Origin: Malania oleifera
Lineage: Eukaryota; Streptophyta; Magnoliopsida; Santalales; Ximeniaceae
Length of the DNA stretch: 64,000 nt
NCBI RefSeq assembly: GCF_029873635.1
Contig: NC_080427.1
Span: forward strand, 73,501,348-73,565,347
Direction of reading: 5' to 3'
Part shown: positions 1,076 to 63,845 of the stretch, in pieces
Layout of the letters: each line of letters begins with the position of its first letter
Position numbering within the stretch: the stretch's first letter is position 1
The notes under the pieces: model-generated
Told to the model about the DNA's origin: nothing
Database searches by the model: none
The model's input: the letters and a program-made list of their open reading frames with translations, nothing else
Position numbers and translations under genes: made by a program

Positions 1076-1454
1076 CGGTCGACCGACCCACACAGGTCAT
1101 TTCCTCCTGGTCGATCGAAACCAGTCTGGGTCAACATATTGACCACGGTCCGGTCGATTGAACCCTTACAGTTCATTTGATCCCGGTCGATCGAACCACC
1201 TGGGAGTCAACATTTTGACGTCTCGATCGACTGACCATTTTTGTACTCCAACTACCTGGTCGACCGGAGGATCCTCGGGAGAAATCCCAGTGGTCTGGTC
1301 GACCGAACCAGGCAGTTCAAAATGGCTCGATCGACTTAACCTCAGAAGTTAGGGAAATCGCCCACTTCCGGTTGACCGAGCCCTTAGCTCAAAAACCCCC
1401 TGGTCGACCGAACCATATGAGTCATGGTCGACCGAAACTAATCTGGTCGACCGG
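1076..1454 (+). repeat. U3 array of GGTCGACC palindromes in LTR B
   Basis: About twelve copies of CGGTCGACCG or one-to-two-base variants (GGTCGATCGA, CGATCGACTG, GGTTGACCGA) occur at irregular 20-45 bp spacing. The first is a perfect 10-bp palindrome at 1076-1085. Copies are usually followed by AACC and then a GTTCAAAA-like tail. The array lies upstream of the TATA box, as expected for U3 regulatory sites. Confidence 0.85.
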
Positions 1455-1582
1455 ACCTTTCGGGTTGCCCTGATTTTTTACCGCAATTAATATTTTTTAA
1501 ACAGGGTTAAAATGCTTTAAACATCATTAAACTTTCCTAATAATACCCAATAGGTCCCCAACGGTCATATTTTCTCCCATGC

Positions 1583-1592
1583 CTATATATAT
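1583..1592 (+). promoter_or_regulatory. Probable TATA box of LTR B
   Basis: CTATATATATG follows the motif array and precedes the conserved GAGTTCATTTG segment. A TATA run sits at the matching place in LTR A (near 3132), LTR D (near 35008) and element E (minus strand near 47403 and 54600). Confidence 0.6.
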
Positions 1593-2616
1593 GAGTTCAT
1601 TTGAGAAAATTACGACGGATTTAACCTTTATGATTAGGAAAAATTCTTTGAAATTTCCAAAGCCTATACTACTCATTTTTTAGCCCGATTCACTTATGCT
1701 TATCGTTTAATAGTGCATATATCATTTGTAAGTGGATTAAGTGTGTGTTTGGGAAGGTTTGTTCTCCGTATTTTATTTGTTTGACATAATTTTATTTGAG
1801 GGAAAAACCTAAGGTTTCTTAGGGGGATTTTGCTAATAAGCCTATCCTAAGAAGACCTTGTTTGATTTTCTAAGCTTGCACCTTTATTGCAAGATCTTAA
1901 GAAAATTGTATTTGTTTTTGGTTGTAAAAACCTTTCAAACACTTTCAAATATCCATTGTGCTTTTATCTTGAAAAAAATTTGAAGAGATATTTGTTTGTG
2001 TGATAAAATCTTTGTTGCAATATTCATTAACTCATATATCCTTTGCTAAATACAAAGATTACACATCTTTTGCAAACCAAGCATATACATCATTTAATAC
2101 TTACATGCTTGAGTTATCTTGCTTATTGAAATACTGGAGACTTGACATCTTTGTGTGAACTTATTTGTTGAATATCGTGTGATACAAAGATTGCTTGTTT
2201 GCCACTCTTACATACACATTACACATATAGAAAATACTTTTGAGAGTTGAACCATTTAGACCACATTGAGCTTACATATTGAATCATATTGTGGTGTATG
2301 ATATTGCGTGCATTTGGGTACATATATGCTTTACACGAAAGCACAATCACTGTACCATCTAATTATATACACATTCGTTATATATCCAGGCACGGGCCTA
2401 AAGAGGGAGACTAGCCCTGGAATAGTCCCGAATTGGCTTAGACCCGGTTATGAAAGCTAGGTGCGTCGTCCTGTTAAAGCGTGTAGGTTGAGGTCAGCCC
2501 CGCTAATTGACTTGGTTAAGGTTGAGGTCAGCCCTGTGTTAATTTGACCTGGTTGTAAACGGTGCTGCTCCACCCTTAAGTAAGCTATTAGTGGAATCCT
2601 TTGACTTGCGAGCTAG

Positions 2617-2652
2617 AGGCGAGGACGTAGGCACAGTTGGCCGAACCCCGAT
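2617..2652 (+). promoter_or_regulatory. Conserved U5 signal GGACGTAGGC..GGCCGAACC in LTR B
   Basis: The block GGACGTAGGCACAGTTGGCC continues as GAACCCCGATAAC. Versions of it occur at the matching place in LTRs A, C, D, E, F and the copia LTR at 4858. Its function is unknown to me. Its position downstream of the promoter places it in the transcribed R/U5 leader. Confidence 0.6.
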
Positions 2653-2886
2653 AACATATCGTGTATTCATTTACATTTCTGCACTTTATATTTACCGCTC
2701 GTATATATTATTGTGTGAATGATGCGTTTGATTTAATTTCCACATCATTGTTATCTCGCATTCGGAAATTGCACAGACAAGTCCCTAGGTTGTGAATATA
2801 CTATTGTTGAATAGATTAACCTAGGAGAAAAAGTTTTAAATTCCAATTCACCCCCCCCCCCTCTTGGGAATACACCAATTCAAACA

Positions 2887-2891
2887 CAAAG
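2887..2891. repeat. Target-site duplication CAAAG, right copy of LTR B
   Basis: Perfect match to 649-653. Confidence 0.9.
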
Positions 2892-4242
2892 ACATTCTGT
2901 TTTTTGTTTAGCTAACCGATCCCAGACTCAGGCACCCAAACTTCAAAAAAGCACTTTTTTGGTTGAGTATGTTCGGGCGACCGAACCTTGGGTCAGGCAC
3001 CCGAATCTCTCGGGTTAAATTAATTCTTACCGGGGTTAAAATTAAATAAACAAGGTTAATTTTCTTAATGGTTTTTAGAACAAATTTAATAATACCTTTG
3101 GTGTCCCCAATGGTCATAATTTTGCCTATGTCTATATATATCTCTTCATTTGCAAAATTAAGGAAAGATTAGCAAATAGGATGAAGCCAAAAATCTCTGA
3201 AAAACTTCAAATCATATTTTCTCCTACTAAGTCCATAACACTCAAATACCTTCATTCCTTTAAAAAAATCTTAATTTGTAAGTTTTTTATTAATTATTCC
3301 ATTTTTCTAAAAACCCTCACTTGCTTTTGTGCTTGTAATTTTCATATTGAGGGTTTAGCTTGATTTTTTCCCCTATTTTATTTGATAAATCTTTGGTTGG
3401 GAAAAATCATATAGCTAAGTGAGTTTGCATTATCATTGCAATACTCATTTGGACTTATTTTTTTGTATGCAAAAATATTTTACAAAGCTAGATTTTAAAC
3501 AACTCTTGTGCTAGATATATTTGACAAAATATTTTTGAGGTTATTTGAATACTCTGATTGGCATATTTGAAACCCTAACCTTGCATTGAGATATTTTATA
3601 TTGTTTTTAAAAGAAAACCTTGTTTATACACTCTTGTGCATATTTGAGATTATCCATAATATTGAGTGTTGATTGCACACGTAAAGCACCGAGCTTATAG
3701 TTCATACATCATTGAGGTGCATTGATTATACTGTGCTTAGTAGTATATAATTTCCTTAGTGTAAGAAGCATATATCCATGTACAAATTATATACACATTT
3801 GTGGTATTCCAGGCGTGGGCTTGAAGAGGGAGACTAGCCCTATTGAATAGTCTTGGACTGGCTCAGATCCGATTAGGAAAGCTAGGTGCGCCATCCTAGT
3901 AAGGCGTGTTGGTTGAGGTCAGCCCTGTGAATTGACCTAGTTGTAACTGGTGCCACTCCACCCGTTAAGTGAGCATTAGCAGAATCCATGGGCTTGCAAG
4001 TTAGAGGCAGGGACATAGGCACAGTTGGCTGAACCTCGATAACATTTCTTGTGCGTGCTTTTAATTTTCGCATTTTAAATTCCCGCACATGAATGTTTAT
4101 ATTTTACTATTGTGAATGATTGGGTTTATAATTGCATAGACAAACCCTAAGTTGAGTAATACTGTTGTTAAACCGATTGACTTAGGTGATAATTTTTAAA
4201 TACCCAATTCACCCCCCTCTTGGGAATACACCAAAGCTAATA
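2892..4242 (+). mobile_element. Sirevirus-type LTR A, right part
   Basis: This continues LTR A after the LTR B insertion. The U3 motif array resumes (CAGGCACCCAAAC near 2931, CGGGCGACCGAACC near 2970, CAGGCACCCGAATC near 2993). It is followed by a TATA run near 3132, an R/U5 with GGGACATAGGC..GGCTGAACC near 4010-4040, and the end signature TTCACCCCCCTCTTGGGAATACACC. The last bases, AAAGCTAATA, resemble the AAAGCTAACA end of LTR D with one change. No primer-binding site follows, so A is also a solo LTR or a truncated element. The right edge is good to a few bases. Confidence 0.8.
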
Positions 4243-4857
4243 TATTGCTATTGTAAATGCTGGAAAAGGAGTTAGATTATTATTGATTGAATAAAGGTTC
4301 TTCCTTTGAAAACTCAAAGCTTTGTTCTGATCCTTGCAATTGAGTGGTGATAGGCTATGGCATTCTCCTCGAAGATTAGTTGGTGTGAGACCAACAATCT
4401 ATCTAACATCTATCTACCACAATCCATCCACTACAACTATCCATCTCGAAGCCATCCATATCATCCATGTTCAAAAAACAACAAGCATCAACCTTTACAC
4501 CGATTCACCGCGATCTTAACAAATTTCTTGGTTTGATTCATGTTTGTGATCATTGGTAAGTTATTCAGAGGATCCACATGGTAAAACTCATCCCAACCCA
4601 TCTATAACTGTATTTACTAGTTTTGTTTATAATCCCATAAGCCCCCATTTTGCAAACCCCTAAAAATCCCATTTTTATCCTAAACCTTCGAAGCCCAATC
4701 GACTGAACCTTAGAGTCCAATCGCCCGACCCCTGTGTTGCTCTCAGTATTTGTCAAAAAATTCAGTCAGTCAACTAACCCTCTTGGCCCCAGTCGACTAA
4801 CCTTTGTTCCCTCTCGATTTCTCACCCAGAATCTCAGTCAGTTGCCTGAGGAACCCC
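4243..4857 (+). repeat. Dispersed repeat, copy 1 (candidate gypsy LTR/leader)
   Basis: This stretch reappears in the same orientation at about 41,161-41,820 with high identity by eye. Shared blocks include TATATTGCTATTGTAAATG, a segment ending TGAATAAAGGTTCTTCC, a run of CCATCCA-like words, and a tail with (C)AATCGACTGAACC / CAGTCAGTTGCC words. An AATAAA followed by a U5-like stretch suggests an LTR. The two copies flank the chromovirus-like pol in the same orientation, so they could be its LTR pair. No ORF in it looks real. Confidence 0.6.
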
Positions 4858-6711
4858 AGTTGGCCTAACATGGCTTTCGAATCTCGTTTTGATGATAACA
4901 AATAAAGTTGATTTAACATGTTTTTGTTTAAGTGATGATATTTCAAGAAACATTGTATGACAAAGGTCAAAAGGATCAAAGAAATGCAAGTTCAAGATCA
5001 CAAGGACCATAAAGCCATACTCCATCAACATAGTGATCAAAAGAAAGCTCAAGAGGACCAAAATGTTCAAAACATATGGAAACTTAAAGAAGACTCAAGC
5101 TCAAGTCTAAGAGGATTCAAAGCAAAGACATATATGAAGACTTCAAGCTTGGAGTGTTTAAAGTCTTTAGGATAACCTTTGTAAGTACTTCATACTAAAT
5201 ATCATTTTGAAATGCTTTGAAGCTCATTATGGGTTGTCATGGACTTAGAGACCTTATTTTAAAATCCTGAAAAAAGCTTTTTAAAGTAACAAAGCAAGAT
5301 TACTAAGAGTTTTTGAAAACTAAACTGAGAAAAAGAAATTATAACTGTTCAAGTGACTGAAGATTAAACCTTAGATGCCTAAAGAATTTCCTAACCATGT
5401 TTTAAAGCTAAAATCTCACAATTTTTAGAAATCTTAGGCGATTGACCTCCAAACCTCAGGCGCCTGACCACTATTAACGACTATTTTTTAAAAGTCTTAA
5501 AATTCAAATTTATATTTCTTGTACCCTAAATTCCGTATAAACGTGTAAAACACTCCAAGTAACTTGGGTAACACGGTTTAAACCTTTTTGAGTCTATAAA
5601 TACATGATTTCTTGAATCAAATAAGTACCAAGCATTGAAAATCTGCTCTGAAGCCATAATTGCTCTTTCTCTCTCAATGCTTTTTTGCTCACACTTTCAT
5701 ACTGAGAATTGTTGGGATATTATGAATCTCTAATCAATCTTCTCTGAGTTCAAACTTTTGAATTGTTGATTCTTATCAATAGAAGAAATCTAGTGAATTA
5801 ATTCTTGAGCTTCAGGTCAATTTCTTTGATATTTGTTTTGAAGTATATTAGTGGTTTCAATTGTACTAACCAGCCCTATCTGAGAGCATCTCTTGTACAA
5901 AAGAAACCTTTTCTTGTTTTCTTGTTTCTTTGATGGTTTAGGTCATTGGATCGTTGTACTTAGCGTGGGATATCGCTTGGAAAGGGGGCTCCACCCTAAA
6001 GGAGGGATTGTAACAGTTTGTTCCGCCCATAAAGGAATGCTATGGTGAAATCCTTAGGTGGTCTTTCTTAAGGCAAGGACGTAGGCTGGGTATAAGCCAA
6101 ACCTTATAAAAAAACTCGGCCTCACTCTCTTTCCCTAAACTCTCTTCACTTTTCTGTACATATATAACTGCGTGGTTATTTATTTCAAATCTATAAATTG
6201 TGTGGACTAGATATTAAATAAACCAAAAATTAATTTGACCTTGGGATTGTGGAAACCAAACGGGAGTACATTGATTGATTAACACCCAAAACTCATTAAT
6301 TGAAAGTTTGTTAAAAATCTGAGTTTTGGAAGAGTGTTGGAATTTTCAATTGTGCTTCATTAAAACATGACTTTTATCAAAACTCTACTATAAGTTATTC
6401 AATTGCTAAATCTTGGAAGCTTTGCTAAAATCATTTTTTAGTGTGAATCTTGTTTTGGTTATCTTGTTGAGAGGATTGAATTATTCAAAAGCTGAAAGCA
6501 TTACATTGTGAATCATTGGTTTGTGTTGATTGAATCAATTTACTCATTCTTAAAGTTTTAAAAGTGAATATTGATATTTAGCTTATATTGTAATTCAAAT
6601 CATCCTTGTTTGAATTCTTAACTTACGATAAGTTGTAAATCCATGAAAAGAGTTAAGAGAAACTTTTAAAACCCAATTCACCCCCCTCTTGGGACTACAC
6701 CTTACTTTTCA
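4858..6711 (+). mobile_element. 5' LTR of a Ty1-copia Sirevirus-type element
   Basis: The start reads (A)GTTGGCCTAACATGGCTTTC and matches the clean start TGTTGGCCTTACAAGG of LTR F. Comparison with repeat copy 2 also shows foreign sequence beginning here. The LTR ends after TTCACCCCCCTCTTGGGACT and is followed at once by a primer-binding site. Inside are weak U3 motifs (GGCGATTGACC, AGGCGCCTGACC near 5440-5470) and the U5 signal AAGGACGTAGGC near 6075. The left end is uncertain by one base because the first T appears mutated. Confidence 0.82.
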
Positions 6712-6713
6712 AT

Positions 6714-13164: not shown

Positions 13165-13935
13165 TTTTTAGTGACGAAAGTATTAGTGACTAATTCAATT
13201 CCGTCCCTAAAAGTTGGTATTAGTGACGGTTTTAAAACCGTTACTAATACTTTTGTCACTAGAAATAGCACGGTAAACAATTTCCGCACGAAAATTTTTT
13301 CAAAAAAATATTAGCGATGATTTTAGGGTATTAGTGACGGTTCCGAAATCGTCACTACTAGTGTTTTTATTTAAAAAATTTTTAAAAAGAAATAGTTAAG
13401 GGTATTAGTGACGGTTTGGGAGAACCGTCACTAATAAGGGGGCATTAGTGACGATTTCAAAACCGTCACTAATAGTTTTTTCATTTAAAAAAATTTTAAA
13501 AAAGAAATAGTTAAGGGTATTAGTGACGGTTTGGGAGAACCGTCACTAATAAGGGGGTATTAGTGACGGTTTTAAAATCATCGCTACTAGTGTTTTCATT
13601 TAAAAAATTTTTAAAAATAAATAGTTAAGGGTATTAGTGATGGTTTGGGAGAACCGTCACTAATAAGTGGGGTATTAGTGACGGTTTTGAAACCGTCACT
13701 ACTAGTGTTTTCATTTAAAAAATTTTAAAAAAGAAATAGTTAAGGGTATTAGTGATGGTTTGGGAGAACGTCACTAATAAGGGGGTATTAGTGACGATTT
13801 TGAAACCGTCACTACTAGTGTTTCTTTTTTTAAATTATTTTAAAAAATTAGTTAAGGGTATTAGTGATGGTTTTGGAGAACCATCACTAATAATAGGGTA
13901 TTAGTGACGGTTTTGAAACCGTCACTACTACTTCA
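13165..13935. repeat. CACTA 5' subterminal repeat array
   Basis: About six units of roughly 110-120 bp each contain two inverted pairs: TTAGTGACGGTTTGGGAGAA with CCGTCACTAATAAG, and TATTAGTGACGGTTTT with AAAACCGTCACTA. A T/A-rich spacer (TTTCATTTAAAAAATTTT) and AAATAGTTAAGGG follow. These are the expected binding sites for the TNPA-like protein. Each unit can fold into hairpins. Confidence 0.9.
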
Positions 13936-16982: not shown

Positions 16983-19900
16983 ATGAACATGGATAAGAGT
17001 TGGATGAACGCTCAGGGTAGGTTTTTTCCAGAATACGTGAAAGAGGTACATGATTTCATAGAGTTCGCGCGTCCTCGTGCTGACGGTGCTAGTAGAATAA
17101 GGTGTCCTTGCAAGAAATGCCAAAACATAACATTCAAACACATTGATTTGGTCCATTCACATTTATTAGACTTTGGAATGGAGAAAAGGTACACAAGATG
17201 GGTGTTCCACGGTGAAGATTACATAGTTCAGAGTGATGATGATGACGATGAAGATAAGGGGGCAAATATAGTAGGTGGTGATACACGTTCGGAAGGGTTA
17301 ATCGAAATGTTAGGTGACTTACAAAGGGGGATTGTAGTGGACACGGAAGACGTCAGTGTGTCGCGTACTGGTGATGAATCTACTTTAGTAGGTACCATAC
17401 CTTGCGATCCTAGTACGTTAAATCAACTTGGTAAACCATTTTCTAATCTCATGAGGGATGCATGGGTGCCCTTATATCCAAATTGTACAAAGTTCTCAAA
17501 ATTATAGTTCCTGATAAAGTTGCTTCATGCAAATACAATGCATGGGTTATCTCAGAGAGCATTCAATATGCATTTAAGCCTCATTAAGGCAGCACTGTCT
17601 GATGGTGAAACACTTCCAAAGTCCTTTTATGAAGCCAAGACATACATGCGTGAATTGGGTATCGATTACACTACTAAACATGCGTGTAGGTATGATTGTG
17701 CACTCTTTTATGGTGAACATGAAAATGTGAATGAGTGTACAAAATGTGGTGAACCGAGGTATACAGCTAATCAGAAGAAGGGTAAAAAGATCCCCCAAAA
17801 AGTTTTGTGATATTGTCCATTAATACTACGATTGCAATGATTGTACATGTGTAGAAAGACTGCTGCAGATATGAGATGGCATAAAGAGAAACATTTTCAA
17901 GAGGAAAACACCCTTAGCCATCTAGTGGTCTCAGAAGCTTGGGCATAGTTTGATAAAATGCATCCATGGTTTGCTAGTGATCCTCGCAACATCAGACTTG
18001 GCCTTGCTTTAGATGGGTTCAATCCTTTCGGTAACATGAGCAACCCGTATAACATGTGGTCAGTTATGATGATGCCATACAATATGCCGCCATGGCGATG
18101 TATGAAAGAACCCTTCATTTATATGTCTCTACTTATTCCTGGACCGAGGGCACCTGGTAATGATATTGATCTTTACATGAGGCCATTAATTGATGAGTTG
18201 AAAGAACTATGGGAAAAAGGAGTGAAGACATTTGATGTGGAAACTGGGACAACATTTCGGATGCATGTTGTACTTTTGTGGACAATTAATGATTTCCCCG
18301 CCTATGACAATCTGTCGGGCTGGAGCACAAAAGGTTACTTAGCATGCCCAGTGTGTAATAAGGATGTTGGGTCCTTATCCTTAAAGCATGGACGCAAGTT
18401 ATGTTTTATGTGTCATCGTCATTTTTTACGACCTAGACATCCTTGGAGGACTCGTGGTTTCAGAAGCTTTAATGGAAAACCTGAACGAAGGTTGCAACCA
18501 AACTGACTAAGTGGGGAAGAGATATTAAACCAGCTCAGGTTGATCAGAGATATGAAATTTGGGAAATCACCTAGCAGTAGAAAAAGGAAATATGCTGAGT
18601 GGGAGTTAAATTGGACAAAGAGAAGCATCTTCTTCGAGTTGTCATACTGGAAAGATCTTCCACTACGCTACAATCTGGATGTCATACACATTGAGAAGAA
18701 CATTTGTGAGAATGTCATTTGTACATTGCTGGATATAAATGGGAAGACAAAGGAAAATGCAAATGCTCGTTGAGATATGGAAGATATGGGAATACAGCCT
18801 AAGTTACATATGATTCTTGATGGGGACAAACTTCTTATGTCATCAGCATGTTACACATTTTCAAAAGATGAGAAGAATAATTTCTTTGAATGGTTGAAAT
18901 CAGTGAAGTTCCCTGATGGATATGCATCGAACATATCTCGATATATAAGCACGAAGGAAGGTAAGATGTTAGGAATGAAAAGTCATGACTGTCACATCCT
19001 TTTGCAATGAGTTCTGCCCATTTTCTTTCGTGGACACTTGATCGAAGATGTTCTCTCAGTGCTGATTGAATTGGGGATCTTCTTTCGACAGTTATGCTCC
19101 AAGAAATTGAGCATAAATGTACTTGAACGGTTAGCAGAGGACATTGTGATCATACTATGCAAGCTGGAGAAAATATTTTCACCAGCATTCTTCGATGTGA
19201 TGGTCCACTTAGCCGTCCATTTACCAATGGAGGCCATAATTGGAGGACCGGTCCAATATTGTTGGATGTATCCTATTAAGAGGTAAATTATAAAGTCCTA
19301 CAATGTTCTCATGATTTCCTTGCTTTTTTATTTTGTGTATACAAGTCACTAATGCTGTGTAAAATGCACAGGTTTTTATCCACTTTGAAGGGAATGTTCG
19401 GCCGTTCATGCTATTAATGTCGAAGATGAAGAACCGAGGAGCTCTATATTTTGAGGAAATGTTCGGCCGTTTGGTGCACGGGTTTATGATTTCATTGATA
19501 TGGACGACCTATGAAGGGCACATTTTTACGTCCTTAATAATTGTGATGAAATTATTCCATATATCGAGTACGTGGTTCAAAACTCCTTACTTTGCATTGT
19601 ATTTACATATGCATATATACTTAGTTGACTTTAACATGTACTATTGTTGCATATAGCGAACATAAAGCTAAACTTTTGGCTCAAAATAAAAGGAATGTTG
19701 AAGAAAGACATAAGAAGGAATTTGTCAATTGGTTTGGGTGTCATGTAAGTAACAACTACTGCCCGATTTTGCTACAATGTACATTTTCAATATTGACGGT
19801 TTACTCATCTAAAGTCCTTTGTAATTAATAGATGAAAGTCATGTATTATAATAAAGAACCAACAGCAAGTAAAGATTTGTACGTGTTGGTATGTGGCCCC

Positions 19901-29612: not shown

Positions 29613-29736
29613 ATTTATGAATTTTATTGCAATTATGGTTTAATGTTATGTATAAGAAAATGTAATTTAATTACAGATTATTACAGGAACTAATAATTGG
29701 AAAAAAATTAAATTCACTATTAATTGTCCAATTTAA

Positions 29737-32804: not shown

Positions 32805-32818
32805 ATCTCCCCCTTTTC
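32805..32818 (-). promoter_or_regulatory. Polypurine tract of element C
   Basis: The minus strand reads GAAAAGGGGGAGAT directly against the 3' LTR, the plus-strand priming site for copia elements. Further AGGGGGAGC-like copies occur at 32868, 33098 and 33520. Confidence 0.8.
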
Positions 32819-36179: not shown

Positions 36180-36184
36180 GAAAT

Positions 36185-38876: not shown

Positions 38877-38878
38877 AT

Positions 38879-41098: not shown

Positions 41099-41820
41099 AT
41101 TTCCTATGCCTATATGGTGACGTTTAGGTCATTTATCATTTAGGTTTTTACTTTCCCATATATATTGCTATTGTAAATGTTGGAAAATGAGTTAGATTAT
41201 TATTGATTGAATAAAGGTTCTTCCTTTGAAAGCTCAGAGCTTTGTTCCGATCCTTGCGATTAAGTGGCGAGATGCTATAGCGTTCTCCTCAAAGATCACT
41301 TGGTGTGAGACCAACAATCTATCCAACATCTATCTACCACAATCCATCCACTACAACTATCCATCTCGGAGCCATCCATATCATTCGCATTCAAAAACAA
41401 CAAGCATCAACCTTTACACTGGTTCAACTCGATCTTAACGAATTTCTTGGTTTGATTCATGTTTGTGATCATTGGTAAGTTATTCATGGGATCCACACGG
41501 TAAAACTCATCCTAACCCATCCATAACTATGTTTACCATCTTTATTTAAGATCCTATAAGCCCCCGTTTCGCAAACCTCTAAAAATCCCATTTTTATTCC
41601 GAACCTTCAAAGCCCAATCAACTGAACCTCAGAGTCCAGTCGCCTAACCCTTGTGTTGCTCTCGGTATTTGCCAGAAAATTCAGTCAGTTGATTGACCCT
41701 CTTGGCCTCCTAGTCGAGTGACCTTTGTTCCCTCTCGGTTTCTCACCCAGAATCTCAGTCAGTCACCTAACCTCCCCACCCTAGTCGCCCGAGGAACCCC
41801 AAAACTTGAAATTTCTCATT
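41099..41820 (+). repeat. Dispersed repeat, copy 2 (candidate gypsy LTR/leader)
   Basis: From 41161 it parallels 4243-4857 through TATATTGCTATTGTAAATG, TTGAATAAAGGTTCTTCC, the CCATCCA-like run and the CAGTCGCCTAACC tail. Copy 2 extends about 60 bp further left because copy 1 is cut there by LTR A. It extends right past GAGGAACCCCA, where copy 1 is cut by the copia LTR. The pair could be the LTRs or terminal regions of the chromovirus-like element. Confidence 0.6.
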
Positions 41821-43684
41821 CTTTAGGCACATACTTGCTTGTCAACTGTGGGATATGATTACGATTACATTGACTTATTTTCTTGAATGATTAAATGGCA
41901 TTTTTATGGCATGTAACTTGACTATCTTGTGAGAGAACCCCCTAGGACTGAATTTGAATCTGATTATATGTGGTTTTAAAATCCTTGGACCGCATGATAA
42001 AACATGATTTATTTGTTTATGTTTGGTGGATTAAATTCTCATTTCAAAGTGTTTCTCATGTTCGTGTTGATTGAGGGTTGAAAACAAGTAGGACTAGGTC
42101 ACCCCACTCCATCCTACATCACACCAACTACAACATTACAATTAAAATTCTTAATATTAGTGTGATATTTAAATAAAGATTGTTGAACTTCTATTTATTA
42201 TAATTTTTTATTTGAAACAATACAATATTTACAGTGATTGTATCATAACTTTATTTATTATCATTTTTTTAAAGGTTACAATAATGTCATTGTAACATAT
42301 GTTGATTTTAAGTGTATTTTAAACAAACTTACAATGTTGCAAGTATTGTTTGAACAACGTTTCTAATTAATGTAACAACCTAATTGTTTTTATGGCATGA
42401 GATATGAAAAAAATAAAAAAGAAAAGACCACAAAAAGAGGTTGGATTTCTATATTAGTAAAGATTCACATTTTTAACATTATCCTCAATTATTTGATGGG
42501 ATCAAAAATTTGTTACACAGTATTGTTGTGATTTTAATATTTTACATTTCCCTTAAAATAATATCATGATTATGTCAATATTTTCAATAAAGTTTGACTT
42601 TTTAGAAATCACTCTATTTTTGTAGGTCAGTTATTATAAGGAAATCCGTGTTTGAAAGACGATTAATTTTCAAGGAACCGAGAAACAAAAGGAGGGAACA
42701 GAGAGCAAAAAGAGGTAAGCTCACTCTACACAATGAGGTGTCCTATCTATTCATTTTGTTTATTTTGATTTCAAACATATTTACTAACTTAGGCATTAAA
42801 GAGAACTCTTAGAGGCCACGGTAACCTTCCAAAATTTTATTTATTCTTGCAAGTCAAAAGTGATAACGATTCTTCACAAATTCAATTTTTATGGAAATTA
42901 TTTGTTTTCAAACGTCACCAAAATTTAAATGAAACAAAACATAAAATTTTAATAAAACTCGGCACATCCTAATTACTAAAATATGAAACTTAAAATATTA
43001 AAAATACTAATTTTTATCATAAAAAATAATGGAAAAATGAATTTTAAATGAGGAACGACCTATAAAAGCAATAAGCACTTATTAAGAGAAGATGTAACTA
43101 TTGATTTATCTCAGTCTTAAGGAAAAAATGTAACTACTGATTTATCTTTCAGTCTCAGGGAAGAGAGTAAATTTTGGAGTGTCCTATTGATAGTTTAGTA
43201 TAATTAATAATGCTAATTTTTAAAAGTTGACAAGAGGAAAAATGGTCGTGCTTGAATTCATATATTCATGACTAGTTAGCTTGACTTTAATTTAAATAAA
43301 AACATAAACGCGCAATACTATCTTACTTTGAATCATTCATCTTGATTGTAATGGAAAAGTTTTACGATTCAATGAACATGAACGTCAAAAGGCATTAATT
43401 AAGAAATTTCTTTTCTTGAAATAATTTTGAGGTTGTGGAGTGAGTCATTGTTGACCATAACCTTTTATTAAAAAAAAAAATGATAAATTTTTATTGTTCT
43501 CTTGGAAAATAAGAAAAAAAAAATGTTTTTACCCAAAAAAAATTTTATTTTTTATTTTAAAAATATATTTATGACATTTTTGAAAATTGAATTCACTTTT
43601 TTCTATAACCAAATCTTTTGTTGATTTATGAAAGAGTTCAGCTTGTATATGAAAGATTAAAGAATGTAAATATGAATGAATAAT
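41821..43684. other. A/T-rich spacer without recognised features
   Basis: No family motif or long open frame was found. The composition is typical of plant intergenic DNA or very old repeats. Confidence 0.5.
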
Positions 43685-43704
43685 ATTAATTTAAAAATTA
43701 ATAT

Positions 43705-44070
43705 ACTTGGTGTAAGTGGCGGCAGCCGACAAAGACGGCGGCGGTGGAGTCGCCACCACGCAGGGAGCGAGGGGTTTCCGGTGGCGGTGTTGCGGCCGGC
43801 CGGAGCCCGAAAGAGTTAAGAATTTAACGGAAAATGTGTTGCGGAAATTCCTCACAGCACCCGCGACGTTGTCCCGTCCGAGCGGGATATGTCGGGTGGG
43901 TGAGGGTTCGGCTCGAGGCCCGCTTCCCACTGGGCTTTGCCGAAGCCCTGTGAAATTCCGAAAAAGCCCCTAGTGTTTTTGCTCCTTTACTCCCGGTGCG
44001 AGTCAGGTCAGCTGGACTAGTATAATTATATAAGGAAAGGAGTGGGTGGGGGTGGACCAATGGGGGAGTG
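43705..44070. other. GC-rich island, possible remnant of host gene edge or promoter
   Basis: This is a sharp GC-rich patch in A/T-rich surroundings, with many CpG dinucleotides, GGCGG words and overlapping short frames on both strands (plus 43716-43973; minus 43930-43691 and 44060-43824). No domain is recognisable. A GCTATAAATAAAG TATA-like string lies just downstream at about 44090. High CpG in an otherwise CpG-depleted repeat region suggests young or unmethylated sequence. Confidence 0.35.
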
Positions 44071-46097: not shown

Positions 46098-46102
46098 ATT
46101 CC
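46098..46102. repeat. Target-site duplication ATTCC, left of element E
   Basis: Perfect match to 55652-55656. Confidence 0.92.
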
Positions 46103-48454
46103 TGTTAGAATTGGTGTATTCCCAAGAGGGGGGGAGTGAATTGGAATTTAAAATTTATCACCTAGGTTAAACCAGATAAACAACAGTATATACACAACCT
46201 AGGGTCAGTCTATTCAATTTCCAAATGCGTAGATAAATATAAAGTGGAAATTAAGTCATACCCATCATTCACCCATAACATACATGTGCGGTAAATATAA
46301 CGTGTTGAAATGTAAATGAACACACGATATTTAATCGGGGTTGGCCAACTGTGCCTACGTCCCCGCCTCTAGCTCGCAAGCTAGAGGATTCCACTAATAA
46401 CTCACTTAAGGGTGGAGCGACACCGTTTACAATCAGGTCAAATTATCACAGGGCTGACCACAACATTAACCAGGTCAATTAGCGGGGCTGACCTCAACAT
46501 ACACGCCTTAACAGGATGACGCACCTAGCTTTCCTAACCGGGTCTAAGCCAATCCGGGACTATTCTAGGGCTAGTCTCCCTCTTCAGGCCTGTGCCTGAA
46601 AATTCAACAGTATTTAAAATACAATCAAATGGTACAATGAATAAGCTTTCGAGTAAAGAAGATGTGTACCTAGATACGCGCAATATCACATACACCAAAA
46701 TATGATATAATATGTAAGCTCAATGTGGTCTAAGATGTCAACTCTCAAATAAATTTACCATCGTTGTAATGAGTGCGTGAGAGTGCAAAAGTAAATGATC
46801 TTTGTATCACAGGATATTCAATCTAAGTGCTCAAACAAAGATATTATCCAAACTTCATATATTTCAATCAACAAGTTTTCTCAATATATATATGTATATG
46901 AAACTCTAGCAATGTATAAGTTTGGTTTGCAAAAAGATATTCAATCTTTGTATTCCGCAAAGGATATATGAGTTAACGAGTATTGCAACAAAGATTTTAT
47001 CACATAAGAAAATATCCCATCAAATATTTTCAAGATAAAAACACAGTAGATATTTGAGAATGTTTTTGCAACCAAAATACAAATACAAACTTCTTAAGAC
47101 ATTGCAATGAATATGCAATACTCAGAAGTTCTATATAAGTCTTCTTAGGGGAGACTTATTAATAATGTCTTCTAAGAATACTTAAGGTTTAGCTCTCAAA
47201 AAATAAGTCAAACAATCCAAAGATAGGAGAGCAAACCAATCAATACAAACACTCAAAAATCAACTTACAAATGATGTAGGCAATATGAGAAGGTAAGATT
47301 GAGTGTGTGGAGCTTGGAAATTAGTATTATAGGGTTTTGATATTTCAAGGAATTTTCCCTAATCAAAGTGGCCAATCACCCTTAATCTTTGCAAATGAAT
47401 ACATATATATAGGCAAGGGAGAAAATATGACCGTTGGGGACCTATTGGGTATTATTAGAAAAGTTTAATGATGTTTAAAACATTTTAACCCTGTTTAAAA
47501 AATATTAACTACGGTAAAAAATCAGGGCAACCCGAAAGGTCCGGTCGACCAGAAAGGTTTCGGTCGACCCGGACACAAATGGTTCGGTCGACCAGGGGAT
47601 TTTTTGAACTAAAGGATCGGTCAACCATATATATATGTGTCAAGGGCAGTTTTTCTAGGTTTGGTCGACCAGGGGAAAAATGAACTAAATGGTCGGTCGA
47701 CCGGGATAGGCGATTTTTCCAAACTCCAAGGTTCTGTCGATCAGGCCGTTTTAAACTGGCTGGTTCGGTAGACCAGACCGCTGTGAATTCTCCCGAGGAC
47801 CCTCCGGTCGACCAGGTAGTTGGAGTACAAAAGTGGTCGGTCGACCGGGAGGTCAAAATGTTGACTCCCAAGTGGTTCGGTCGACCGGGGTCAAATGACT
47901 GTAGGGGCTCGGTCAACCAGGGCCTTAGTCAACAGTTGACCTGGACCGGTTTCGGTCGACCAAGCCAAAATGAACTAGCTTGGTTCGTTGACCGAAAGTG
48001 CATCATGTGTGCATTTCGGTCCCATTTTGAAACAAACAAGCCCTATTCAAGTGCCTAACAATCATATATGTACATGTGTGTGTCCTAAGGTCACTTGAGT
48101 CCAATTTTGAATACACCGAAAAAGTTCGGTGTCGGTCGACAAGGGTACACCCTAAGGTCATTCTAAGGTCATTTCTTATTTACGGTTTGTTTGAGCTTAT
48201 GTATTAACAAGCAGGTGATGTGTGTGTGAACTTATTACAAACCAGATCCCTAATTACTATTACAGACCCTTTACATCAAAGAAATACAACAATTAAATTA
48301 TAACTAGGGTCTTCAAGGTCTTTATTTTCCTCCAAGGGTCTCCGAGTGCCATCATATGATACCACCAAGATAAACCTGCACATCAACTCAACAGACATTA
48401 AATACATGAGTATTTGTCATAATCAAAATAGGGATATGACCTATAAGGTCAACA
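46103..48454 (-). repeat. Element E 3' LTR
   Basis: Plus-strand ends are TGTTAGAATTGGTGTATTCC and GACCTATAAGGTCAACA. Contents in plus order are the U5 signal (46333-46367), a TATA box (near 47403, minus strand) and the GGTCGACC array (47536-47999). Confidence 0.93.
47536..47999 (-). repeat. U3 array of GGTCGACC motifs in element E 3' LTR
   Basis: At least a dozen (C/T)GGTCGACC copies and near copies appear, spaced 20-50 bp, with the same flanking words as in LTRs B and D but on the opposite strand. The matching array in the 5' LTR is at 54740-55185. Confidence 0.88.
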
Positions 48455-53299: not shown

Positions 53300-53301
53300 A
53301 T

Positions 53302-55651
53302 TGTTCGAATTGGTGTATTCCCAAGAGGGGGGGGTGAATTGGAATTTAAAATTTATCGCCTAGGTTAAACCAAATAAACAACAATATATACACAACCTAG
53401 GGTCAGTCTATTCAATTTCCAAATGCGTAGATAAATATAAAGTGGAAATTAAGTCATACCCATCATTCACCCATAACATACATGTGCGGTAAATATAACG
53501 TGCTGAAATGTAAATGAACACACGATATGTTATCGGGGTTGGCCAACTATGCCTACGTCCCCGCCTCTAGCTCGCAAGCTAGAGGATTCCACTAATAGCT
53601 CACTTAAGGGTGGAGCGACACCGTTTACAACTAGGTCAAATTATCACAGGGCTGACCTCAACCTTAACCAGGTCAATTAGCGGGGCTGACCTCAACCTAC
53701 ACGCCTTAACAGGACGACACATCTAGCTTTCCTAACCAAGTCTAAGCCAATTCGGGACTATTCTAGGGCTAGTCTCCCTCTTCAGGCCCGTGCTTGGAAA
53801 TACAATAGTATTTAAAATACTATTAAATGGTACAATGAATAAGCTTTCGAGTAAAGAAGATGTGTACCCAGATAGGCGAAATATCACATACACCACAATA
53901 TGATATAATATGTAAGCTCAATGTGGTCTAAGATGTCAACTCTCAAATAGATTTACCATCGTTGTAATGAGTGCGTGAGAGTGCAAACGTAAATGATCTT
54001 TGTATCACAGGATATTCAATCTAAGTGCTCAAACAAAGATATTATCCAAACTTCATATATTTCAATCAAAAAGTTTTCTCAATATATATATGTATATGAA
54101 ACTCTAGCAATGTATAAGTTTCGTTTGCAAAAAGATATTCAATCTTTGTATTCAGCAAAGGATATATGAGTTAACGAGTATTGCAACAAAGATTTTATCA
54201 CATAAGCAAATATCCCATCAAATATTTTCAAGATAAAAACACAGTAGATATTTGAGAATGTTTTTGCAACCAAAATACAAATACAAACTTCTTAAGACAT
54301 TGCAATGAATATGCAATACTCAGAAGTTCTATATAAGTCTTCTTAGGAGAGACTTATTAATAAAGTCCTCTAAGAATACTTAAGGTTTAGCTCTCAAAAA
54401 ATAAGTCAAACAATCCAAAGATAGGAGAGCAAACCAATCAATACAAACACTCAAAAATCAACTTACAAATGATGTAGGCAATATGGGAAGGTAAGATTGA
54501 GTGTGTGGAGCTTGGAAATTAGTATTATAGGGTTTTGATATTTTAAGGAATTTTCCCTAATCAAAGTGGCCAATCACCCTTAATCTTTGCAAATAAACAC
54601 ATATATAAAGGCAAGGGAGAAAATATGACCGTTGGGGACCTATTGGGTATTTTTAGAAAAGTTTAATGATGTTTAAAGCATTTTAACCCTGTTTAAAAAA
54701 TATTAACTGCGGTAAAAAATCAGGGCAACCCGAGAGGTCCGGTCGACCAGAAAGGATTCGGTCGACCAGGACACAAATGGTTCGGTCGACCAGGGGATTT
54801 TTTGAACCGAAGGATCGGTCAACCATATATATATGTTTCAAGGGCAGTTTTTCTAGGTTCGGTCGACCAGGGGAAAAATGAACTAAATGGTCGGTCGACC
54901 GAGATAGGCGATTTTTCCAAACTCCGAGGTTCGGTCGACCAGGCCGTTTTGAACTGGCTGGTTCGGTAGACCAGACCGCTGTGAATTCTACCGAGGACCC
55001 TCCGGTCGACCAGGTAGTTGGAGTACAAAAGTGGTCGGTCGACCGGGAGGTCAAAATGTTGACTCCCAAGTGGTTCGGTCGACCGGGGTCAAATGACTGT
55101 AGGGGCTCGGTCAACCAGGACCTTAGTCAACAGTTGACTAGGACCGGTTTCGGTCGACTAGGCCAAAATGAACTAGCTTGGTCGTTGACCGAAAGTGCAT
55201 CATGTGTGCATTTCGGTCCCATTTTGAAACAAACAAGCCCTATTCAAGTGCCTAACAATCATATATGTACATGTGTGTGTCCTAAGGTCACTTGAGTCCA
55301 ATTTTGAATACACCGAAAAAGTTCGGTGTCGGTCGACAAGGGTACACCCTAAGGTCATTCTAAGGTCATTTCTTATTTACGGTTTGTTTGAGCTTACGTA
55401 ATAACAAGTAGGTGATGTGTGTGTGAGCTTATTACAAACTAGACCCCTAATTACTATTACAGACCCTTTACATCAAAGAAATACAACAATTAAATTATAA
55501 CTAGGGTCTTCAAGGTCTTCATTTTCCTCCAAGGGTCTCTGAGTGCCATCATATGATACCGCCAAGATAAACCTACACATCAACTCAGCAGACATTAGAT
55601 ACATGAGTATTTGTCATAATCAAAACAGGGATATGACCTATAAGGTCAACA
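53302..55651 (-). repeat. Element E 5' LTR
   Basis: It pairs with 46103-48454 almost base for base, starting TGTTCGAATTGGTGTATTCC and ending GGTCAACA. The TATA box is near 54600 on the minus strand and the U3 array at 54740-55185. It would be the promoter of the element. Confidence 0.93.
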
Positions 55652-55656
55652 ATTCC
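55652..55656. repeat. Target-site duplication ATTCC, right of element E
   Basis: Perfect match to 46098-46102. Confidence 0.92.
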
Positions 55657-59506: not shown

Positions 59507-61456
59507 TGTTGGCCTTACAAGGCTTAATATCCTATTTTGATGCTAACAAACAAGTATAGCTTAACATATTTGGTTAAGTGTTGTTATTTTCATGACTAAA
59601 TGAAGAATGCAAGGATAAAGAGTTCATGAGAGCTTGTACTTCAAAAAATGATAATTATATGAAGCTTGAGGCATGGATTCAAGAATAAAAAACCAAAATT
59701 CAACATGTGATCCAAATTGAAAGCTCAAGAAGTCTAGAAGATTAAAAGTTCAGCAAAGCAGATCAAGAGACCTTAAAGCTAAGAAAATGTCAAAACAGCT
59801 TTAGGACAAGTCTTTGTAAGTACTTCAAGTTTATTCAAATATGAAGTTTTCATTTTGAAGCTCATTAGGAAAAGAGACTTAGAAACCTTAATATAAAACT
59901 TGGAACATGTTTTTCAAAGTTAAAAAAATCTATATTCCAAGAATATCTAAGCAAAAATGAGAGAGAAATCAAAAAATGACTAGAAACAAAAATCAGTCAG
60001 TTGACAGACGCTTGTCTATTTATGGATAGATGACTGGCCAATTTAGCACAACTTAACTGAAGACAGAAGCCTAACAGACGACTGTCAAGGCTCTGAAAGA
60101 CGATTGCCAGTGCAAAGTGAGAAGTTTGTGAATGTTTTACCAGATGACTGTCCACCTTCTGTGTTATTGAGAAACTTAAATTGTTCATAGACAGATGACT
60201 ATCACCATATAGACAGACGACTGCCGCCTCTCTGTGTGTAAATATTATAACTATATTCTGGTGACAGACGACTGACAATCAAGGGATAGACGACTGCCAC
60301 CTCTCTGTCCATGAGTTTTTCAGTTATATCATATGAACAAATGACTACTAGAGTTTCACAATCGTCTGTCTCGTGGCATTTCTCAAACTTTCGACGGATA
60401 TATAATTTTTGAAATTCAAATTTTTGAAACTTAAATAATTTTAATATTTGGAAACAACTCTAAGTATTCTTGGGGAACAATCAAGGAAGTTTTCTACCTC
60501 TATAAATACCCTCAAGGATCATTGTTTTAAATACCAAGAAATTAAATCCAACTCTTATTCTCTCTCAAAACCTACTAAAATTCTGAAAGTGTGCTATTAC
60601 TCTCATCACTCACAAAATTTTATGAAAGCTTTGCTGAAGTTACTCACTGAGTTGTGCATCAAGTTGATTGTTTCTTTCATTCATTGAAAGATATCTACGG
60701 TGATAAGTTTCTAAGAGCTTCATTCTGAAATTCATGTTCGAAATTTATTGAAGTACATAAGTGTTTCAAATTTGTACTAATCAACTCTTTGAGGAGCAAG
60801 TTCTTGTACGTCTTGTTTTCTATCTTTGTAATAGGATTAGTTGACGGTTCGAGTATTGAATCATTGGACCAATCAAGGGGATATTGTTTGGAGAATGCGG
60901 GCTCTAGCCTTACCTAAAGAGTGCTTGTAATTGGTCTTGTTCCGCCTAGTAAAGGAACACTAATAGTAAATCCTTTGGTGGTTTTGCCAAGGGTGAGGAC
61001 GTAGGCTGTGTTGAAGTCAAACCTCGTAAAAATCTCTATGTTCTTTCTCTACTCTACTCATTATTTTTCTTTTTACAAAAGATATAATCTGTTTGGATGC
61101 TTTAAATTTCAATTCTGAATGTCTGGTTGTTAAATAGACCGGAAGGTAATTCGTTTTGGATAAATCAGCATTGATTGCGGAAACCGAAAGAGACTACATT
61201 AGTTGATTATCCTAGACCTGTTAATTTGAAATTTTATTTAGAAACTGAACATTAGGAAGAAGAATAATTGTGATACAGGGCTTATAATGAGTTCAACAAA
61301 TTTTTACATATATACAGGGTTATTGTTACATAAATTGAGTAATTGATCTTGCTATGTAATTGTGATTGTATCTAAGTTTTGATTGTTATTATAAGGGAAT
61401 AATTTTTTTAGAACTCAATTCACCCCCCTCCTCTTGGGAGGCTATTCCAATTTCAA
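59507..61456 (+). mobile_element. Solo LTR F (Sirevirus-type) inside the Tork-like pol
   Basis: It starts TGTTGGCCTTACAAGGC and ends after TTCACCCCCCTCCTCTTGGG and CTATTCCAATTTCA. The interrupted copia frame (..DMSKVP) resumes right after (PYVSTMGCLTYAMVCTRPEL), which confirms insertion. Flanking duplications (GTCCC / TCTCC) are imperfect and the right edge is uncertain by a few bases. It shares its start, its end and the U5 text (GAGGACGTAGGC at 60996) with the copia LTR at 4858. It has a U3 array of AGACGACTG motifs (59995-60370). Confidence 0.88.
59995..60370 (+). repeat. U3 motif array in LTR F (GACAGACGACTGTC type)
   Basis: About ten copies of (C)AGA(C/T)GACTG(T/C/A)C and variants, including TTGACAGACGCTTGTC, AACAGACGACTGTC, AGATGACTGTCC, AGACGACTGCCGCC and GTGACAGACGACTGAC. 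Full copies have a palindromic GACAG..CTGTC frame. Confidence 0.8.
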
Positions 61457-61825
61457 TCTCCTATGTTAGTACAATGGGGTGTTTAACATATGCTATGGTA
61501 TGTACAAGACCCGAACTAACACAAGTTGTCAGTGTGGTAAATAAGTTTCTTTCAAATTCGGGTGTTTGCATTGGGATGCTATCAAATGGATTTTCATATA
61601 CTTATGAGGTGCTTCTCACTATAGCATCATGTTTGGCAGGCAATAGAGTGATCTATTAGTTGTGGGATATGTTAATGCAGACTATGCAGGGGATCTGGAT
61701 GATAGGAGGTATACAATAGGGTATATGTTCACCATTATGGGAGGACCTATTTGTTAAAGGTCCATGGTACAATCTCTAGTTGCATTATCAACAACTGAGT
61801 CAGAGTATATTGCAATTGCCGAAGC
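61457..61825 (+). pseudogene. pol: Tork/Tnt1-like copia pol, 3' part (end of RT and RNase H)
   Basis: The reading resumes after LTR F with PYVSTMGCLTYAMVCTRPEL, then VVSVVNKFLSN. After a degraded piece, RNase H text follows (NADYAGDLDDRRYTIGYMF, then STTESEYIAIAEA). The last block is the conserved RNase H/C-terminal motif of copia elements. It stops abruptly at 61825, where LTR G begins. The last part of RNase H and the 3' untranslated region are missing. Confidence 0.88.
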
Positions 61826-62734
61826 TGTAACGACCTGCTTAACTTAATATAAAAAATGAAACATAATAAATAGAAAGGTCAACCCAACCCCATGGGTAAC
61901 AGGGACACCTGTCATTCACAACGGAAACCTACGCAGCAGTAAGTATAAAATCTCAATCAACCAACCATAAAACATAATACCAGAGTTTACTACATCATTA
62001 AAGTACTGTATTTATATACAACCTCCAAAACATCAAAATAACCCTAGAATCATACGACAAAAATCTCTTGATCCTAGATCAAAATCTTACCCTCCTAGTG
62101 GGGTAACTCAATAAGCTCAATGGCAGAGACGACCCACCGGTCTCTCTGGGTCTCCTAAAATATTAATTAAGTTCGGGGGTGAGACACTTCTTTGTAAGGA
62201 AAAAATAATCTAAATACAGTTTTGTGGCAACATGAATATATAATGTAGTTATACATTTACAATACATTTCATATATCTATAAACATTCGTCATAACACAC
62301 TGAGTCATCATTTACTTTCATATCTTTCTAGTAACTCATATCATTCACAATCTGTCTGTTATATCTAATAATACTGAAAACATACCTAAGATGAATAGCT
62401 AACTGATGTCATGTATTACCCCCCATGACGGGTTGTGTAGCCCGAAGGCAGGACCCGACAATAGCTGGCCGACCACTGCTAAGTCAAAAATGTCTATAAG
62501 TACAATGGGCCCACCACGCCCTAGTCCGAACTGTCAAGTGGACGTCCACACTCTACTGAAAGCCACATCAACTCTCCATCTCCCACCCCCTTGTGGAGTG
62601 GTTAGCACAAATCTGATCATAGATATCTGATCTATAAGCTACGGTACCGTGCTCCTGAACTGAACTAAACTAACATCCGGGTTCTGATAATATATAATAC
62701 ATGATAATATAGCATCTTTCATAATTTTATAAAT

Positions 62735-62882
62735 ACGGCCTCGCGCCGAACATTTCATAAATATAGCCTCATGCCGATCGTTTCATAAATACGGTCTCGC
62801 GCCGAAATCATACATAAATACGACCTCGCGCCGAAATCATACATACACATATACGACCTTGCACCGAAATCATTTCATATAT
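62735..62882. repeat. Five-copy tandem repeat, unit about 28-32 bp
   Basis: Units follow the pattern ATACGGCCTCGCGCCGAA with an ATCATACATAA-like spacer. The CpG-rich core GGCCTCGCGCCG is altered by C-to-T changes in units 2 and 5, as expected from cytosine methylation. Confidence 0.85.
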
Positions 62883-63627
62883 GTATATCATTTTGAAAAT
62901 AATCAATTTATCGTGTATTTTCAACATCATAATGTACTGTATTCTTTCATAATTTCTAAAAACATATTTCATTCATATCATTGTCATATCATGATATTTT
63001 CCACGTAAAATAATATTCATGCCATACATTTTCTATATAAAACCATACATTGTATTCTAAAATCATAGTTTTTGACATCTCATACATACATATTCATTTC
63101 AACATATTAGCAGTATTTTTCCCAAATGTACAATTTCCTTCGCAATATACAAATATAATACATGCCTTTCTAAAAGTAAATTTACTCATACATAATAATA
63201 ATTTGCATGGAAAATAACTGCTTTAATTTATTCCCTTACTTAGCTATTAAGAAAAAACCTTTATAAATTATGGTTTCACACCCGTAGGATTTCCTGATCA
63301 GTACCCTGAAAATGAAAACTCTCAGTACTAAACTTCAATATTTTCATGTGTATATCATTTCCTATAACTACCGGAGGACCAAATTTGGCTTAAGCCTTAC
63401 ATCAACTTAGGGATGATTTTCAACGGAATTCCACCGACGATCCGCTCTGGCAGATATGCAGAGAACTTTTCTAGGAGTGTCGTGGTGGCTTCAGATCGTC
63501 GATTCGGGAAAAATCCAGCCCGAAATCGAAATAAGAAGGGGAGGGAGCCGAAGGGAGAGAGCGAGAGTGAAATTTTTCTAATTTTTGACATTTAAATCCA
63601 GGTTTTTGATATTTATAAAACTAAATT

Positions 63628-63845
63628 CGTCGATGAGTCCTTCAATAATTTCGTCGACGAAACCCACTCCTCGTCGACGAAATTCAGATTGCTCAAAATC
63701 TCTCTCGGTATTTCCTCATCGATGAATCCTGTCTTCGTCAATGAGGTCCTCTTATACCCTCGTCAATGAATCCCTTGTGTTCGTCGACGAGACCTTGATA
63801 ATTTCTCTCGGTTATTCCTTCCAAAGTCCAATGTCGTTGACGAAC
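63628..63845 (-). repeat. CGTCGACGA motif array in LTR G
   Basis: Eight copies or near copies are seen: CGTCGATGAGTCC, CGTCGACGAAACC, CGTCGACGAAATT, CATCGATGAATCC, CGTCAATGAGGTCC, CGTCAATGAATCCC, CGTCGACGAGACC and CGTTGACGAACG. The core TCGTCGACGA is a perfect palindrome. Confidence 0.85.

Follow-up and report, generated by a model that had tools for sequence, protein, structure and literature searches.

Regularly spaced boxes with two-fold-symmetric cores in the U3 of copia- and gypsy-type long terminal repeats of Malania oleifera

A window of 64,000 nucleotides from the genome of Malania oleifera (RefSeq assembly GCF_029873635.1, contig NC_080427.1, positions 73,501,348 to 73,565,347; "the window" in the following) holds several Ty1/copia-type long terminal repeats (LTRs) and one of Ty3/gypsy type, whose U3 regions carry arrays of short boxes with a palindrome-like core (Table 1). 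A preliminary description, made from the letters alone, had claimed that every LTR family of the window possesses such an array and that the core changes between families while the layout stays the same. Here, these arrays are followed through the window and the genome, and the readings that may account for them are weighed.

Box arrays in the LTRs of the window

The LTRs of the window were delimited by self-comparison and by reading of the sequence. A finder for 12-bp dyad motifs, to which the cores had not been supplied, was applied to every U3 and, for comparison, to 10 dinucleotide-shuffled versions of the same sequence; it recovered the cores of LTRs A, B, D, F, and G and of both LTRs of elements C and E well above all shuffles, and the arrays of both copies of repeat K also exceeded theirs. 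A cruder test (commonest 10-mer with at most two mismatches, 30 shuffles) was clear for B, D, both LTRs of E, and G and narrowly so for the first copy of K, with A, both LTRs of C, F, H, and the second copy of K remaining within the range of their own shuffles. Thirty copies of the core GGTCGACC were counted in the whole window, against an expectation of 0.17 and a maximum of two in 100 shuffles; six of them lie in B, five in D, nine in each LTR of E, and one (at 251) in A, outside the cluster of boxes scored there. The GGTCGACC arrays of B, D, and E had been placed correctly by the preliminary description, and its motifs for A (GGGCGACCGA at 484 and 2975; GGGCACCCGA at 631), C (GACGACTGA at 40345 and 40537; GATGACCGA at 32132, 32153, and 40423), and G (TCGTCGACGA at 63651, 63671, and 63781) are present; no stretch of the window matches exactly the 14-mer given for F (GACAGACGACTGTC), but the core CAGACGACTG is found there. 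The arrays are located upstream of a TATA-like site, again as described.

Arrays of this kind have a precedent. Bousios et al. (2010; PMC2829016, Table 3) report for 13 Sireviruses palindromic repeated motifs that are specific to the family; each element has 8 to 32 copies, in CpG islands and shortly upstream of the TATA box. The authors state that the motifs are absent from classic copia elements and that no common factor could be named for the boxes. The window arrays resemble them in their palindromic boxes, family-specific core, CpG islands, and closely following TATA box, and the motif of the Vitis Sirevirus, CGGTCGACCG, contains the core of B, D, and E (PMC2829016). Family-specific cores, which had been thought less described, are therefore already published for Sireviruses.

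The elements themselves also show Sirevirus features. The Sirevirus polypurine octamer AGGGGGAG, whose start lies 10 bp before the 3' LTR and which recurs in the linker, is present five times on the own strand of E (50867, 49961, 48968, 48494, and 48457) and four times in C (33523, 33097, 32871, and 32807), the last copy abutting the 3' LTR in each case. The Sirevirus primer-binding site (PBS) TATCAGAGC follows the 5' LTR of E exactly (53288, minus strand), and that of C (TATCAGAGT) is one letter off. A C-rich integrase signal near the 3' end of the LTR is visible by eye in A, B, C, D, E, F, and H; a regular expression found it in 12 of 20 genome loci with boxes as in B, D, and E, in 7 of 30 with boxes as in C or F, in 1 of 30 with boxes as in G, and in none of four short loci with boxes as in A, all counts being affected by 3-kb loci that may stop short of the LTR end. 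The CGG-CCG signature of the Sirevirus boxes is found in A and partly in B, D, and E (left outer letter T in 67%); the boxes of C and F (CAG-CTG) and those of G (TCG-CGA) lack it. As in Sireviruses, the clusters lie in a CpG-rich stretch that ends shortly before the TATA box, with observed/expected CpG ratios (200-bp bins) of 0.7-1.3 over the arrays of B, D, and E, against 0.55 overall, and lower values (0.35-0.96) over those of C and F. Sirevirus motifs also have extra copies before an envelope-like gene; the internal part of E contains no exact GGTCGACC, in a count restricted to exact copies and not aimed at such a gene.

The arrays of Sirevirus families are largely of a known kind. To this, the present analysis adds their regular layout, a core that changes across whole arrays, cores of the CAG-CTG form, the large number of arrays in gypsy LTRs, and possibly the sharing of an array with copia; quantised spacing, core change at homologous positions, CAG-CTG cores, and non-Sirevirus arrays are not described in the accessible parts of PMC2829016. 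Tnt1 and further copia elements likewise have short activator boxes, repeated upstream of the promoter in their LTRs; PMC2829016 mentions these boxes. Unlike them, the window arrays consist of 5 to 18 dyad boxes whose core differs array-wide.

Several features of the window lie outside this comparison. LTR B is about 81% identical to part of the LTR of E in self-comparison, E is flanked by an ATTCC target-site duplication, and F sits inside a copia at about 56.6-64 kb. LTR H, repeat K, and the end of G at 63.8 kb as a junction of gypsy and copia LTRs had not been listed before. Arrays of AGTGACGGTTTT...AAACCGTCACT repeats at 13326-13930 and 29736-30300 flank a segment with a tnp2 transposase (17949-18506), which is probably a CACTA-type DNA transposon. 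A stretch at 43501-44000 is CpG-rich (observed/expected 1.35), and a scan of the window for tRNA genes gave no match.

Table 1. LTRs, repeats, and box arrays of the window. Scores are those of the de novo dyad-motif finder, with the shuffle maximum in brackets.
Feature	LTR or repeat	Strand	Box array	Core or motif	TATA	Score	Remarks
LTR A, main array	1-653 and 2887-4240	+	439-640	TCGGGCGACCGA / TCGGGCACCCGA		194.1 (119.9)	split by solo LTR B
LTR A, final boxes		+	2908-3004	de novo motif	3133		
LTR B	654-2886	+	1075-1454	GGTCGACC	1584	196.3 (126.8)	solo, inside LTR A; CAAAG duplication 649-653 / 2887-2891
Repeat K, copy 1	4241-4867	-	4638-4867	TCAGTCGACTGA		72.9 (55.2)	6 boxes
LTR H	4868-6708	+					5' LTR, followed by PBS-like site and copia gag (PF14223)
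Element C, 3' LTR	30583-32809	-	32053-32360	CAGACGACTG, TT/AA arms	31957	159.6 (111.7)	element C has both LTRs and holds solo LTR D
LTR D	34025-36181	+	34464-34878	GGTCGACC	35008	218.6 (142.1)	solo, within element C
Element C, 5' LTR	38877-41104	-	40342-40651		40246	164.3 (115.8)	spacing mostly 21-22 bp
Repeat K, copy 2	41160-41860	-	41541-41860			87.9 (62.7)	self-comparison match 41160-41763
Element E, 3' LTR	46102-48454	-	47541-47995	GGTCGACC	47409	242.9 (130.0)	
Element E, 5' LTR	53301-55652	-	54739-55192		54607	243.6 (134.4)	
LTR F	59508-61456	+	60008-60369	CAGACGACTG, GA/TC arms	60501	166.7 (134.1)	
LTR G	3' end near 61827	-	63626-63844	TTCGTCGACGAA	63617	114.7 (66.3)	Ty3/gypsy-type
Copia 3' LTR U3 remnant (probable)	63845-63937	+			63917		post-array to TATA; abuts gypsy array

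Layout and change of core across the genome

Boxes of the window types are abundant in the genome. Pairs of boxes within about 50 bp were counted in forward and reverse direction over 1.49 Gb, with the same pattern read backwards as control. Such pairs number 13964/14302 for the T-type core of B, D, and E (GGTCGACC; control 1/2) and 18579/19650 for the G-type (TCGTCGACGA; control 0/0), counts that for these near-palindromic boxes represent largely the same places on both strands. The C/F-type (CAGACGACTG) gave 639/630 pairs, the A-type (CGGGCGACCG) 167/181, and pure T-T pairs 9443/9591, each with a control of 0/0. The stretches picked up by 15-mer scans for relatives outside this genome, in viral contigs (43 and 59 stretches) and genome contigs (at least 117), are taken as chance matches, because none of the 219 loci has a tblastn match at 1e-6 to the 171 open frames of the window.

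The spacing of the boxes, previously called irregular, is quantised and falls into narrow classes. The 233 T-type spacings (20 fetched loci with 21 arrays) lie at 19-22, 24, 30, 32-34, and 37-44 bp and then from 50 bp upward; a single one is at 11 bp, and none fall at 25-29, 35-36, or 45-49 bp. Spacings of 32-34 and 38-41 bp alternate, which results in a two-box unit of about 72 bp. Among the C/F-type loci, some of which overlap, a spacing of 21-22 bp accounts for 150 of 296 cases, and other peaks lie at 11, 40, and 50-52 bp. The 220 G-type spacings, from loci many of which overlap, lie at 19-22, 24-25, and 44-48 bp and above, with none at 26-43 bp, and usually follow the pattern 21, 25, 19, 46, 20, 24, and 21 bp or close to it. 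Helical phasing was rejected as an explanation, as spacings of 19, 24, 32-33, 40, 51, and 72-73 bp are, by inspection, a poor fit to multiples of 10.5 bp. The distance to the promoter is similarly regular: in 11 of 21 T-type arrays, the first TATA box follows the last box by 137-141 bp (with the strand set by hit number, and four loci later read the opposite way), and in 8 of the 12 distinct G-type arrays with an identified TATA box it does so by 7-8 bp. The 43-bp-class spacers of the E 3' array (47541-47995), like those of many T-type places in the genome, carry a second palindrome similar to GGTCAACNGTTGACC, whose TTGAC halves we take to be W-box-like.

Within an array, the boxes agree in their core. 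The comparison of the T-type (GGTCGACC) and A-type (GGGCGACC) cores is based on 24 genome loci and on A, B, D, and both LTRs of E, with boxes scored irrespective of the centre-left position. The centre letter is T in 235 of 238 boxes of the 20 T-type loci and in all 49 boxes of B, D, and the E LTRs; it is G in 31 of 32 boxes of five A-type arrays (four loci and window A). When the boxes by which the loci had been found are set aside, 149 of the remaining 152 T-type boxes have T, and 13 of the remaining 14 boxes of the four fetched A-type loci have G. The 33-bp spacers of the A-type look homologous to those of the T-type: 21 hand-picked spacers (about 100 places) gave a z of 52 against the same class and of 12 against the 40-bp class, and a repeat with nine spacers from fetched loci gave 33 against the same and 15 against the wrong class, although all z-scores from these spacer shuffles are inflated because related spacers were counted as independent. 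With the boxes masked, A-type arrays together with their downstream flank beat all shuffles against their best T-type partners, the flank contributing much. The likeliest reading is that A and T arrays share an ancestral layout in which the letter would have changed in nearly all boxes.

A different change is apparent between C and F, which have the decamer CAGACGACTG in common and differ in the outer arms (TT..AA vs GA..TC) such that the dyad is preserved. Eleven C-like loci contain 108 boxes with C arms and none with F arms, and the 14 listed loci out of 19 F-like ones contain 162 with F arms and two with C arms; the loci, some of which overlap, had been sorted by these arms, both strands were scanned, and 9 + 26 boxes were ambiguous.

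G-type arrays in gypsy and copia elements

The gypsy-like character of LTR G and the parallel design of arrays in a gypsy-type LTR, both proposed previously, are borne out by the G-type pair counts and by loci with a Ty3/gypsy integrase. In two loci (L276 and L264), the integrase PF24626 lies upstream of the G-type array on the strand read as sense; for L264, this sense is backed by a match of its pre-array sequence to L276, although another analysis oriented the locus oppositely. In a third locus (L251), an rve domain below the cut-off lies very close to the LTR, which may therefore be an insertion, and a fourth (L248) has no Pfam match. Among 16 distinct G-type loci, the flanks of the L276 LTR have a match in 11; one locus is copia, and four are not assigned to either group. 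Window G, a solo LTR, matches L276 at 86% over the array, 79% after the TATA box, and 80% further on, and this similarity places it with the gypsy-type LTRs. The last spacer of the gypsy arrays L276 (1346-1533) and L248 (1501-1690) contains ACGTGG, presumably a G-box-like motif, and the part of the window's gypsy LTR downstream of the TATA box contains four to five 28-bp tandem repeats (62724-62873).

The copia locus (L266; PF07727), read by eye, has, in this order, an RNase H region, a polypurine stretch, a G-type array (1500-1680), and a TATA box near 1782, with the LTR likely starting near 1420. The layout of its array (21, 25, 22, 47, 20, 25, and 20 bp) is the gypsy layout. Compared with five gypsy arrays, its spacers overall exceed shuffles whichever orientation is used (p 0.003 and 0.001, 1000 shuffles). 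Taken singly, only the central spacer is significant in sense orientation (0 of 500 shuffles), and spacers 1, 2, and 4 are in reverse (p 0.000, 0.022, and 0.034), so that the orientation of the relationship is ambiguous in this single copia case of one locus and one LTR. Five loci with a copia reverse transcriptase beside a G-type array (L271-L275) were considered and are interpreted as cases of a copia that contains a gypsy LTR, not as a second copia array.

The view that G is one LTR was likewise rejected, as the gypsy LTR is joined to a probable copia LTR remnant. The sequence at 63845-63960 matches the array-to-TATA stretch of the copia locus with a score of 59 (best of 300 shuffles, 40), and 63845-63937 is probably what is left of the 3' LTR of the host copia; the outermost G box, near 63840, may belong to it as well. 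At 63805-63937, the gypsy LTR (minus strand) and the copia remnant (plus strand) meet at their arrays, and the copia sequence from RNase H to the array is missing. Perhaps the junction results from a deletion by recombination between arrays.

No report of arrays in gypsy LTRs or of their exchange between copia and gypsy was found among the listings of full-text searches in open literature, outside which most subscription papers lie.

Possible function of the arrays

The reading that we favor, with somewhat better than even confidence, is that the arrays are U3 binding arrays for two-fold-symmetric, probably host-encoded factors. Each array would represent a regulatory segment of the LTR, with 5 to 18 boxes at set spacings and, within the main families, at a constant distance from the TATA box, and would be read by a dimeric DNA-binding factor. 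The bound factors probably cooperate and act together on the promoter, because the layout is kept as well as the boxes. Each array may be tuned to one specificity, because the families differ in their recognition letters and the boxes within an array agree. That the TTCGTCGACGAA array is common to copia (at one locus) and gypsy suggests that the factor, or family of factors, is encoded by the host and not by the element. The earlier proposal of sites for a dimeric factor thus receives indirect support from the dyad symmetry, the constraint on the boxes, the kept spacing, and the dyad-preserving arms of C and F. Protein binding, dimerisation, an effect on transcription, and the host origin of the factor are inferences.

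The constraint on the boxes is evident between diverged lineages. At non-CpG sites, with every exact box pair by which a locus could have been picked omitted, boxes of 24 aligned T-type arrays differ by 17-30% and spacers by 23-61% in bins of spacer divergence from 0.20 up; for 12 G-type arrays, the ranges in bins from 0.2 up are 15-25% for boxes and 28-72% for spacers (the single G-type pair below 0.2 has 11.5% and 13.2%); however, these loci were found via exact box pairs, and the aligned sequences are related, so that the pairs are not independent. Both points weigh against the binding reading, as do several further observations. In T-type arrays with a spacer divergence below 0.20, the boxes are not slower than the spacers (33.3% vs 3.6%, 21.6% vs 12.6%, and 17.6% vs 17.6%), an excess that is partly an effect of omitting exact boxes. 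Nor did the boxes change more slowly after insertion: the paired LTRs of E differ at 3.6% of box sites vs 2.7%, those of one genome locus (L245) at 3 of 22 box sites vs 9 of 212, and those of C at 15.4% vs 5.8% of non-CpG sites, which means that boxes are even faster. At CpG sites, changes in the E pair are less frequent in boxes (3 of 62 sites) than elsewhere (16 of 90), and the C pair shows no difference (7 of 24 vs 21 of 68). LTR H makes the claim that every LTR family has an array too strong: its de novo score of 107.5 hardly differs from the shuffle maximum of 107.0, the motif is an AT-rich word, and four weak boxes (5349-5467) are visible by eye only. The 43-bp spacers of the A-type, which in a first test favored their own class (z 21 vs 12; nine hand-picked spacers, three of them with 36-41 bp spacing), did not favor it over other classes in a repeat with three spacers (z 10 vs 10 and 15); the proposed change of core on a constant layout is therefore supported for A and T by core homogeneity and 33-bp spacers and finds no clear support in the 43-bp spacers. 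Finally, T- and A-type boxes have a single fixed orientation with asymmetric flanks (GA on the right of the T-type in 86-91%), and the centres of A-type boxes are imperfect dyads; simple binding of a symmetric dimer is therefore not the whole story. The divergence data are most simply explained by conservation of the boxes in active lineages and their later decay.

Alternatively, the arrays might act as RNA, with hairpins of the palindrome cluster feeding small-RNA silencing and the symmetry being used by this pathway or tolerated despite it. We consider this unlikely as a general explanation. According to PMC5311732 and PMC10760457, small-RNA hotspots of maize lie over palindrome-rich LTR regions, and the palindrome clusters of maize Sireviruses are situated, like the window arrays, in the cis-regulatory region of the LTR. 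When the sense strands of four arrays were folded and compared with dinucleotide shuffles, E (z -5.45) and C (z -5.07) folded better than the shuffles. By contrast, the equally regular arrays of G (z -1.66, equalled by 6 of 100 shuffles) and F (z -1.00, by 18 of 100) have no clear folding excess, which ranks hairpins lower, and a hairpin would presumably not need a fixed distance to the TATA box.

Still less probable is an origin by tandem duplication and decay, in which the arrays would be old minisatellites that mutate freely and were re-expanded in each family from one unit (about 72 bp with two boxes, or 21-22 bp in C). Spacers of the same class indeed share sequence (e.g., AGTTCAAAA in the 32-33 bp class), Tandem Repeats Finder detects 21-bp arrays in C, and the post-insertion decay of the boxes, as fast as at other sites and faster in C, is what free mutation would produce. 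Between diverged lineages, however, boxes differ by 15-30% and spacers by up to 61-72%, with the spacing kept within a few bp, which contradicts the decay of a microsatellite alone that had been named as a possible refutation. The similarity of the 33-bp spacers of A and T despite their different cores makes A look unlike the product of a single-box re-expansion.

The VANC proteins of VANDAL transposons provide a model for an element-encoded anti-silencing protein. Boxes that co-evolve with such a protein family by family, as also suggested in the preliminary description, would fit the array-wide, family-specific cores but are very improbable, as the G-type array is common to gypsy and (at one locus) copia and the 282-amino-acid frame beside the 5' LTR of E has neither a Pfam match nor a homolog at E 0.001.

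A more far-reaching version of the favored binding reading, which we regard as tentative and rather doubtful, is that the arrays are transferable promoter modules. The same eight-box array, with its core, spacing, and central spacer, would then serve Ty3/gypsy and Ty1/copia elements, and neighbouring copia arrays would have been re-tuned in concert to other dimeric specificities. If true, the LTR arrays would naturally document how specificity has changed among host transcription factors of one family, and U3 modules would have been exchanged between superfamilies; the presence of one module in both copia and gypsy elements would count as evidence of such a promoter exchange. Natural arrays whose layout is largely kept but whose letters differ are matched probes for finding the factor that recognizes the boxes. 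With more than 18,000 G-type pairs per strand and 11 of 16 distinct sampled loci matching gypsy LTR flanks, the question of what reads these boxes widens from one genus to the LTR elements of plants.

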